In this document: in pieces, positions 3,708 through 24,225 of the stretch
How the letters are laid out: every line of letters begins with the position of its first letter
How positions within the stretch are numbered: the stretch's first letter is position 1
From: Ruegeria atlantica
GTDB lineage: Bacteria > Pseudomonadota > Alphaproteobacteria > Rhodobacterales > Rhodobacteraceae
Assembly (NCBI RefSeq): GCF_001458195.1
Contig: NZ_CYPU01000074.1
Location: 62,001 to 126,000, forward strand
DNA length: 64,000 bases
Direction: 5' to 3'
Program-made: the position numbers and the translations under genes
Notes under the pieces: generated by a model
Told to the model about the DNA's origin: nothing
The model's database searches: none
The model's input: only the letters and a program-made list of their open reading frames with translations

Positions 3708-4370
3708 ATGAGCCGTATTGCAACCGGAATTTGTGCGGCCGTCGCCGTGGCCGCTGGCGGTTATTGGCTGTCGCTGTCAAATTCCAACCCCGCCTATCCG
3801 CTGATTAGCAGCGCCGAGGCGCAAGAGGCCGATCTGGACACCTCGACCATCGTCGAGATGACTCTGGGCGCCGAAAACGCACCAGTCGAGATCATCGAAT
3901 ATGCGTCCTATACCTGCCCGCATTGTGCGAATTTCCACACGGGAGCGTACAAGCAGCTCAAGAAAGATTTCATCGACACAGGTAAGGTGAAGTTCATCTA
4001 TCGCGAGGTCTACTTTGACCGCTATGGCCTGTGGGCGTCGATGGTTGCACGCTGCGGCGGGCCCGAAAAGTTCTTTGGCATCTCCGACCTGATCTACGAA
4101 GGCCAGTCCGAGTGGACCAAAGCCGGTGGTCCCGCTGAAATCGTGGACGAGCTGCGCAAAATCGGGCGTCTGGCTGGTATCGACAATGATCAGCTTGAAG
4201 CCTGTCTGCAGGACGGAACCCGCGCGCAGACGCTGGTCGCTTGGTATCAGGAAAACGCCGAGCGCGACAGTATTCAGGCGACCCCGTCCTTCATCGTGAA
4301 TGGCAAGCCGGTCGAGAATCAGTCCTATGACGGCTTCAAAAAGCTGATCGAAGACGAACTGGGCAGCTAA
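3708..4370 (+). CDS. DsbA-family thiol:disulfide oxidoreductase
   Basis: A 220-residue periplasmic thioredoxin-fold protein. An uncleaved or cleaved signal (about residues 5-22, AVAVAAGGYWLSL) leads to a linker and then a DsbA-type domain with the redox motif CPHC (70-73) in YASYTCPHCANFH and a cis-proline loop in ATPSFIVNG. The long alpha-helical insertion expected in the DsbA/ScsC-like group is present between the active site and the cis-Pro. It likely forms or isomerises disulfides in exported proteins. It follows the DUF721 gene by 14 bases. A stem-loop just after the stop may end the transcript. Confidence 0.9.
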   Translation: MSRIATGICAAVAVAAGGYWLSLSNSNPAYPLISSAEAQEADLDTSTIVEMTLGAENAPVEIIEYASYTCPHCANFHTGAYKQLKKDFIDTGKVKFIYREVYFDRYGLWASMVARCGGPEKFFGISDLIYEGQSEWTKAGGPAEIVDELRKIGRLAGIDNDQLEACLQDGTRAQTLVAWYQENAERDSIQATPSFIVNGKPVENQSYDGFKKLIEDELGS

Positions 4371-23406: not shown

Positions 23407-24093
23407 ATGGCTCAGCTCAAGAAAATCCTGCTGGTGGATGACGATGAAGATCTGCGCGAGGCGCTCAGCGAGCAACTTGTGATGACCGAGGATTTCGACG
23501 TGTTCGAAGCGGCAGACGGTCAATCCGCCATGGAGCGTGCACGCGAGGCGATTTACGATCTGGTCATTCTGGACGTTGGTCTGCCGGATACGGACGGTCG
23601 TGAGCTGTGCCGTCTGATGCGCAAACAAGGCGTCAAAAGCCCGATCCTGATGCTGACAGGCCATGACAGCGACGCAGATACGATTCTGGGTCTTGACGCA
23701 GGCGCTAACGATTATGTCTCTAAGCCGTTTAAATTCCCGGTCTTACTGGCTCGTATCCGCGCGCAGCTGCGTCAGCATGAGCAATCAGAGGACGCGGTCT
23801 TTGTGCTGGGGCCGTATACCTTCAAGCCTGCGATGAAGATGTTGATCACCGAAGAGGATCGCAAGATCCGTCTGACCGAGAAAGAGACCAACATTCTCAA
23901 GTTCCTGTATCGCTCTGCCGATGGTGTGGTTGCCCGCGATGTGCTGCTGCACGAGGTCTGGGGTTATAACGCCGGTGTCACCACACATACGCTTGAAACC
24001 CACATCTATCGTTTGCGCCAAAAGATCGAACCCGACCCATCGAACGCGCGCCTTTTGGTCACAGAATCGGGCGGATATCGCTTGATTTCGTAA
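23407..24093 (+). CDS. OmpR/PhoB-type response regulator (CenR/PetR-like)
   Basis: A 228-residue two-component response regulator. The receiver domain has D11/D12, the phosphoacceptor D56 in ILDVGLP, T84 and K106 in YVSKPFKFP. The C-terminal winged helix ends LETHIYRLRQKIE...GGYRLIS. Sequence style and length resemble the conserved alphaproteobacterial CenR/PetR group, which controls envelope and division genes in relatives; this is a resemblance from memory, not a search. A strong AGGAGG precedes the ATG at 23407. No histidine kinase is adjacent. Immediately downstream lies an FNR-type box and a candidate small RNA. Confidence 0.9.
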   Translation: MAQLKKILLVDDDEDLREALSEQLVMTEDFDVFEAADGQSAMERAREAIYDLVILDVGLPDTDGRELCRLMRKQGVKSPILMLTGHDSDADTILGLDAGANDYVSKPFKFPVLLARIRAQLRQHEQSEDAVFVLGPYTFKPAMKMLITEEDRKIRLTEKETNILKFLYRSADGVVARDVLLHEVWGYNAGVTTHTLETHIYRLRQKIEPDPSNARLLVTESGGYRLIS

Positions 24094-24104: not shown

Positions 24105-24146
24105 TTGACGTGGATCAAAGTGATACTCTGGATGTGTAATTAGATT
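24105..24146 (+). promoter_or_regulatory. FNR-type box and -10 element of a class II promoter
   Basis: TTGAC-GTGG-ATCAA at 24105-24118 matches the FNR/FnrL consensus TTGAT-N4-ATCAA at nine of ten positions. Its centre is 24111.5, and TAGATT at 24141-24146 sits where a -10 box would be if transcription began at 24153, exactly 41.5 bases downstream, the standard class II spacing. It starts 11 bases after the stop of the response regulator. Function is inferred from pattern only. Confidence 0.6.
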
Positions 24147-24152
24147 ATTCCC

Positions 24153-24225
24153 AACCCGCGCATGTCCGGGTTATGACATGCACCTCCCTGTTGGACTGCC
24201 GGGCCTTATGGCCCGGCTTTTTTTT
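24153..24225 (+). ncRNA. Candidate FNR-controlled small RNA (about 73 nt)
   Basis: From the predicted start, AACCCG (24153-24158) can pair with CGGGTT (24167-24172) to make a 5' hairpin; alternatively GCATGTC (24160-24166) pairs with GACATGC (24175-24181), and the two are mutually exclusive. Then comes an unpaired ACCTCCCT (24182-24189), which could pair with Shine-Dalgarno sequences, and then a strong terminator. This hairpin, anti-SD stretch, terminator order is typical of base-pairing sRNAs. It could instead be only the 3' UTR of the response regulator. Confidence 0.5.
24198..24225 (+). terminator. Strong intrinsic terminator
   Basis: Perfect 8-bp stem GCCGGGCC/GGCCCGGC around TTAT (24198-24217), followed by eight T residues. 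It ends the response-regulator transcript and the candidate small RNA. Confidence 0.93.

Follow-up and report, generated by a model that had tools for sequence, protein, structure and literature searches.

The question raised by this locus is whether the short sequence behind an OmpR-family response regulator gene of Ruegeria atlantica encodes a small RNA with a promoter of its own, or whether it is only the 3' untranslated region (3' UTR) of that gene. The window analyzed, i.e. the whole stretch of DNA of 64,000 nucleotides, was compared with Rfam using cmscan. Positions 24153-24223 matched the SorX family (RF02784) with 80.4 bits against a cut-off of 46.6 and over the entire model (1-73 of 73), and SorX was the sole family matched at the gathering threshold in the whole 64 kb. 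A first-pass annotation made from the letters of the sequence had proposed a candidate sRNA at this place. The RNA is real and correctly located, but it is not new, as it is the known sRNA SorX. The transcription start predicted in that annotation, 24153, is identical to position 1 of the SorX model. The features of the locus are the following:

23407..24093, forward strand: cenR/ompR-1 orthologue, encoding an OmpR-family response regulator with Response_reg and Trans_reg_C domains; host gene of SorX
24105..24118, forward strand: FNR box TTGACGTGGATCAA (TTGAC-GTGG-ATCAA), centred at -41.5
24141..24146, forward strand: -10 element TAGATT (T-12, A-11, T-7)
24153..24223, forward strand: SorX sRNA (RF02784), with the A at 24153 as predicted +1
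24153..24158, forward strand: 5' arm AACCCG, which can pair with the hairpin loop CGGGTT (24167-24172)
24160..24181, forward strand: SorX hairpin GCATGTC (24160-24166)/GACATGC (24175-24181), present in the Rfam consensus pairing and in the minimum-energy fold
24182..24195, forward strand: single-stranded anti-Shine-Dalgarno core ACCTCCCTGTTGGA
24198..24225, forward strand: intrinsic terminator with a stem at 24198-24217 (8 GC pairs) followed by a T tail; part of the Rfam model

In Rhodobacter sphaeroides, SorX has been described as an sRNA cut from the 3' UTR of ompR-1/cenR, where RNase E cleaves a 116-nt precursor at the 5' end of the 75-nt RNA (PMC6238624). SorX is the new name of RSs2461 (PMC5036791), which is co-transcribed with RSP_0847 from an RpoHI/II promoter and whose levels diverge from those of ompR in a way termed surprising by the authors (PMC3320616). 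A review classes SorX as a type II, i.e. processed, 3' UTR sRNA (PMC7821165). In the portions of the literature considered here, RNase E maturation and Hfq binding of SorX are known for R. sphaeroides only. The RNA of the window resembles R. sphaeroides SorX in sequence, structure, terminator and its place behind cenR/ompR-1. However, whereas SorX of R. sphaeroides has been published as a processed 3' UTR sRNA under RpoHI/RpoHII control, a predicted class II FNR promoter lies exactly at the SorX 5' end here, and the locus taken as that of R. sphaeroides (L027) carries a degenerate version only.

For comparison, 394 genomes of the family were searched with RF02784, which gave a match at E <= 0.001 in 379 genomes and a match over the cut-off in 311. 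The survey of upstream regions starts from the best 149 of the 379 matching genomes and thus represents the better SorX matches rather than a random draw. One genome with matches at contig ends (G028) was left out, leaving 148, as was the representative of the window's own genus (G043), leaving 147 genomes, one per genus. Among these matches listed, a cenR match with 75-100% identity is located upstream of SorX in 144 of the 147 genera. In R. sphaeroides the regulator RSP_0847 has been named CenR (PMC9275681, in whose main text the word SorX does not occur), and because of the SorX synteny in common we regard 23407-24093 as its orthologue. The description of the upstream regulator as CenR-like was therefore appropriate, both by its domains and by this synteny. 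The cenR stop codon of the window occupies 24091-24093, and from there to 24153 the distance is 59 nt.

The 73-nt RNA folds with -31.5 kcal/mol as compared to -20.4 kcal/mol (sd 2.7) for shuffled sequences (z -4.1). The minimum-energy fold contains the GCATGTC/GACATGC helix only; the AACCCG/CGGGTT helix is absent from it. At the one pair position examined between 5' arm and loop, X-Y in CCCX/YGGG, a standard pair is found in 125 of the 144 scored genera among the matches listed (G-C in 80, C-G in 36, U-G in 9), 19 being non-complementary and three of the 147 not scorable. Both helices are thus present where the first-pass annotation had drawn them, but the competition it saw between them is not singled out: competing hairpins acting as a switch or a pseudoknot could fit equally. 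For the same reason, and as a single pair position is concerned, the 5' arm-loop pseudoknot was dropped as a proven structure. Downstream of the hairpin, ACCTCCCT occupies 24182-24189 within the anti-Shine-Dalgarno core. In the 147 aligned genera among the matches listed, the core CTCCCTGT..G.A, that is CTCCCTGT plus a further G and a further A column, is invariant, an apparent conservation that is favoured by the anchoring of the loci on this core with at most two mismatches allowed. The near-invariance of the core in relatives agrees with the anti-Shine-Dalgarno loop recognized earlier, and the terminator, a stem followed by T's, was likewise placed correctly.

Upstream of SorX, TTGAC-GTGG-ATCAA agrees with TTGAT-N4-ATCAA at 9 of 10 positions, and its centre is 41.5 bases away from the predicted start at 24153; box, TAGATT element and spacing are all as first annotated. 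A degenerate box pattern matched 44 times in the 4.8 Mb genome versus 12 times for the reversed control, which makes it unlikely that a box would fall precisely into register by chance. Within the genus, 45 of 54 genomes contain a perfect box together with the SorX core. Thirty loci of the genus were read, the window's own among them: the box is perfect in 27 and deviates at one position in the other 3, and 29 have TANNNT at -12 to -7. A sigma-70 consensus scan detected no promoter at the SorX locus. Lack of a sigma-70 consensus match is usual for activator-dependent promoters and is not support for one either.

The box extends beyond the genus. A perfect TTGAY-N4-RTCAA was found upstream of SorX in 46 of the 147 genera among the matches listed, compared to a mean of 0.12 and a maximum of 2 in 200 Markov resamples of the stretch upstream of SorX. 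With up to one mismatch allowed, 57 genera carry a box (resamples: mean 2.4, maximum 8), and 90 of the 147 have no box within this limit. Of these 57 boxes, 51 are in register, with 70-90 nt between box centre and CTCCC core; 43 of the 51 are perfect and 8 contain one mismatch. The centre-to-core distance of the remaining six is 44-50 nt in four cases, 98 nt and 104 nt. The four close ones (G180, G196, G313 and G115; loci L161, L111, L146 and L106) are FNR palindromes set against the SorX 5' end in a repressor-like position. CRP-like palindromes occupy the FNR box position, or lie close to it, in L095 (G092) and, by eye, in L030 (G228), suggesting a possible swap of regulator. As an exact pattern, box plus SorX core is present in 62 of the 394 family genomes and in none for the reversed control. 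Conservation in relatives, a check set beforehand, was therefore found, in 45/54 genomes of the genus and 62/394 of the family, without including every relative.

The strongest point for the predicted promoter is the fixed register between the box and the -10 TA (T-12, A-11). In the 51 in-register genera among the matches listed, TA occurs at one box-fixed offset in 39, one nucleotide further in 9 and at neither position in 3; in 2000 spacer shuffles the top TA count at any offset was 12. In the 18 genera whose box is at least 77 nt from the core, the box-to-TA offset is the same in 16 and one base longer in 2. If TA is aligned on SorX instead, at most 15 of the 51 share any one upstream place. 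Box and -10 element hence shift together and the SorX cut site does not shift with them, which argues for a promoter. At position 42 from the box centre, the expected +1, an A is found in 31 of the 57 boxed and 27 of the 51 in-register genera among the matches listed. Pairwise identity drops from 80% in the box to 36% in the spacer, and over the 12 nt that precede the box it is 27%. A weight matrix built from box and -10 element scored above the 99% resample level in 64 of the 147 genera among the matches listed (1.5 expected); as 51 of these trained the matrix, 13 are independent, two of which (G282 and G347) are out of register. Several of the 13 carry the half-site TTGCG. This half-site recurs in place of TTGAY upstream of SorX in L021, L029, L117, L099, L079, L126, L153, L131 and L027.

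The last of these loci, L027 from G051, was taken as R. sphaeroides 2.4.1, since the coordinate of SorX there matches the published coordinate to the base. It carries a degenerate box, TTGCG-N4-ATCAA (TTGCGTGAGATCAA), and an in-register TATAAA, and its matrix score falls just under the 99% level (p about 0.012). The register predicts a start at position 1472 of the locus, about 2,598,196. The 5' end published for pre-SorX is 2,598,182 (PMC6238624). The idea that the 116-nt pre-SorX of R. sphaeroides starts at the FNR promoter was rejected: its end lies 14 nt upstream of the predicted start, so that this promoter does not account for it.

Two genera have a boxed SorX copy that is separate from cenR. 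In L327 (G302), the SorX behind cenR (73.5 bits) has no box. About 580 nt further on, a frame of 116 amino acids is followed by a second SorX of 61.9 bits; its box is perfect and 73 nt from the core, and its TA is displaced one base beyond the usual place. In L334 (G277), a SorX of 66.3 bits with a box 74 nt from the core and the TA in place lies behind a gene for a SigJ-type sigma factor, and no cenR match was found in the 1500 bases fetched. Judged by these two arrangements, the boxed SorX unit can stand alone. Both boxed copies are located just before the same type of oxidoreductase-like gene (frames starting with MKQIVYHQFGDPARVLE and MKRAIYREFGHPAQVLE), and the two may represent a conserved second SorX locus.

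The genome of the window encodes FnrL (NF045989, 458.8 bits against a cut-off of 300), and an FNR box lies directly upstream of the fnrL frame as taken here. By protein search, an FnrL orthologue or close relative with at least 50% identity was found in 140 of the 147 genera among the matches listed, including G098 and G022, in which FnrL is split into pieces and was counted as present. The other seven, some of them incomplete genomes, have no match or a best E no better than 1e-28. None of these seven has the box (Fisher p 0.04 for the 57 boxes, 0.10 for the 51 in register), so that co-occurrence of box and FnrL points weakly in the right direction. Imam et al. (2014), using ChIP-seq in R. 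sphaeroides, placed FnrL at the putative promoters of two sRNAs, RSs0019 and RSs2461, an effect of FnrL on the two RNAs being beyond what the authors could establish (PMC4263372). Because RSs2461 is SorX (PMC5036791), this site concerns SorX. PMC4263372 thereby joins FnrL and SorX under the old name; a link between the two is absent from the portions of PMC8307010, PMC6238624 and PMC9779115 considered here, Peng et al. (2016), the primary SorX paper, being outside this scope. In the main text of the paper on FnrL of Dinoroseobacter shibae the term 'small RNA' does not occur, nor does 'SorX' in that of the Ruegeria pomeroyi sRNA paper.

The first alternative to be weighed is that SorX arises only by processing of the cenR 3' UTR, the box being incidental and the A/T-rich stretch before 24153 an RNase E site. 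This is the published R. sphaeroides route, with its RNase E cut at the SorX 5' end and its 116-nt precursor (PMC6238624), and it fits the presence of cenR upstream in 144 of the 147 genera among the matches listed. It also fits the spacing: in 24 of the 87 unboxed genera among the matches listed, the SorX start lies 1-25 nt past the stop codon of cenR, and in no boxed genus among them is the distance from stop to SorX less than 45 nt. Processing alone, however, leaves unexplained why an FNR palindrome is kept at a fixed distance to the TA as the distance to the cut site varies, why boxed SorX copies exist away from cenR, and why FnrL was found by ChIP at the R. sphaeroides orthologue (PMC4263372). 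We therefore consider it unlikely as the sole origin of SorX in this lineage. The earlier caveat that the RNA might be the cenR 3' UTR holds insofar as this route is published for R. sphaeroides; the word 'only' in it is opposed by the comparative evidence. Own promoter and 3' UTR processing probably coexist, and the unboxed genera in which SorX lies within 25 nt of the cenR stop may use processing alone.

It is quite improbable that the activator is another regulator of the Crp/Fnr family, e.g. Dnr/NnrR responding to NO or FixK/CrpK, instead of FnrL. Dnr-type proteins use the Fnr box too (PMC5398030), and the CRP-like palindromes of L095 and L030 would suit such a regulator, but in the genome of the window an FnrL query matched FnrL alone at E <= 1e-8, and the second of its two PF00325 proteins is far under the cut-offs of all nine NCBIfam models matched. 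The NO response offered in the first-pass annotation as an alternative to oxygen accordingly found no support in this search, and oxygen sensed by FnrL is favoured as the putative signal. That FnrL instead blocks read-through from cenR or represses SorX, as the boxes much nearer to SorX in G180, G196, G313 and G115 might suggest, is highly improbable, since 51 boxes occupy the class II position and 48 of these have their -10 TA either in register or one base beyond it.

The reading we prefer, and hold with considerable confidence, is that SorX in this lineage has its own class II FnrL promoter in addition to its probable release from the cenR mRNA. The class II promoter proposed at the outset thus survives, as a prediction carried by the box-to-TA register, its conservation, the FnrL gene and the ChIP-seq site of the orthologue. 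At low oxygen, dimeric [4Fe-4S] FnrL would bind 24105-24118 at -41.5 and bring RNA polymerase to the -10 element at 24141-24146, with transcription starting at or near 24153. The primary transcript would be SorX itself; in genera whose gap is longer, a short leader would precede it. From read-through cenR mRNA, RNase E would probably free SorX as well, as published for R. sphaeroides. In either case SorX would act as a base-pairing sRNA that uses its C-rich loop to bind Shine-Dalgarno regions and presumably depends on Hfq, as it does in R. sphaeroides. With somewhat less assurance, we think it probable that FnrL directly activates SorX at low oxygen in much of the Rhodobacteraceae, from a class II promoter within the cenR 3' UTR, and that in some genera the two routes have split into a boxless gene behind cenR and a free-standing boxed one. 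As the sRNA itself was already known, what is new is the putative class II promoter, conserved in a fixed register and distributed patchily, together with the split copies.

The sRNAs FnrS of E. coli and PcrZ of R. sphaeroides are similarly under the control of an oxygen-sensing FNR protein (PMC4263372, PMC8307010). No family relation of either to the RNA described here was seen, as SorX alone is found at the Rfam gathering threshold, and unlike them SorX sits in the 3' UTR of a regulator and has a second, processing route. If our reading is true, one sRNA ties together the essential CenKR envelope system, the singlet-oxygen and heat sigma factors and an oxygen sensor, and a processed sRNA is seen gaining, losing or splitting off its own promoter. 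It would also offer a reading for the FnrL ChIP-seq site whose effect could not be measured (PMC4263372), and perhaps explain the divergence between RSs2461 and ompR levels (PMC3320616).

As the anti-Shine-Dalgarno core is complementary to Shine-Dalgarno sequences, SorX likely acts by translational repression, presumably of transporter mRNAs; this action is also reported in the literature for its target potA. Of 14 potA-like loci fetched, 13 had a scorable start, and their pairing energies were mostly ordinary in comparison to 19 starts of the window (5th percentile -19.7, best -21.4). The sole stronger case, L326, reached -23.4, but this locus is under the potA cut-off. A search for Shine-Dalgarno complementarity in the own genome gave 9 matches versus 2 for the control; two of the 9 fall on the SorX loci in antisense, and two represent a single site. 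At L311 (G000:C74, around 3909-3926, minus strand) the Shine-Dalgarno sequence ACAGGGAGG of a gene read as a TRAP-type solute-binding protein gene is complementary to the SorX core. The stretch is present in 41 of 54 genus genomes; of the 30 loci read from these, 28 retain ACAGGGAGG, at a site picked for its complementarity and of a kind that is conserved anyway. The TRAP gene is thus a candidate target and only a lead.

The own genome contains a second SorX-like locus on the minus strand at G000:C39:529148-529232 (L034:449-533), which scores 48.0 bits with the SorX model and, with 44.6 bits, stays far under the cut-off of 111 of SorY (RF02651). It has an identical anti-Shine-Dalgarno core, CACCTCCCTGTTGGAC, followed by a terminator, and lies behind a LysR-type gene whose product we take to resemble VtlR/LsrB. 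A strict box is absent from this locus; the best palindrome matches at 8 of 10 positions and is 64 nt from the core, outside the register of 70-90 nt. A third SorX match, under the cut-off with 31.7 bits, is located at L035:366-422 on the minus strand behind a gene for a small arginine-rich protein, and presumably belongs to a 3' UTR of the CcaF1/CcsR type.
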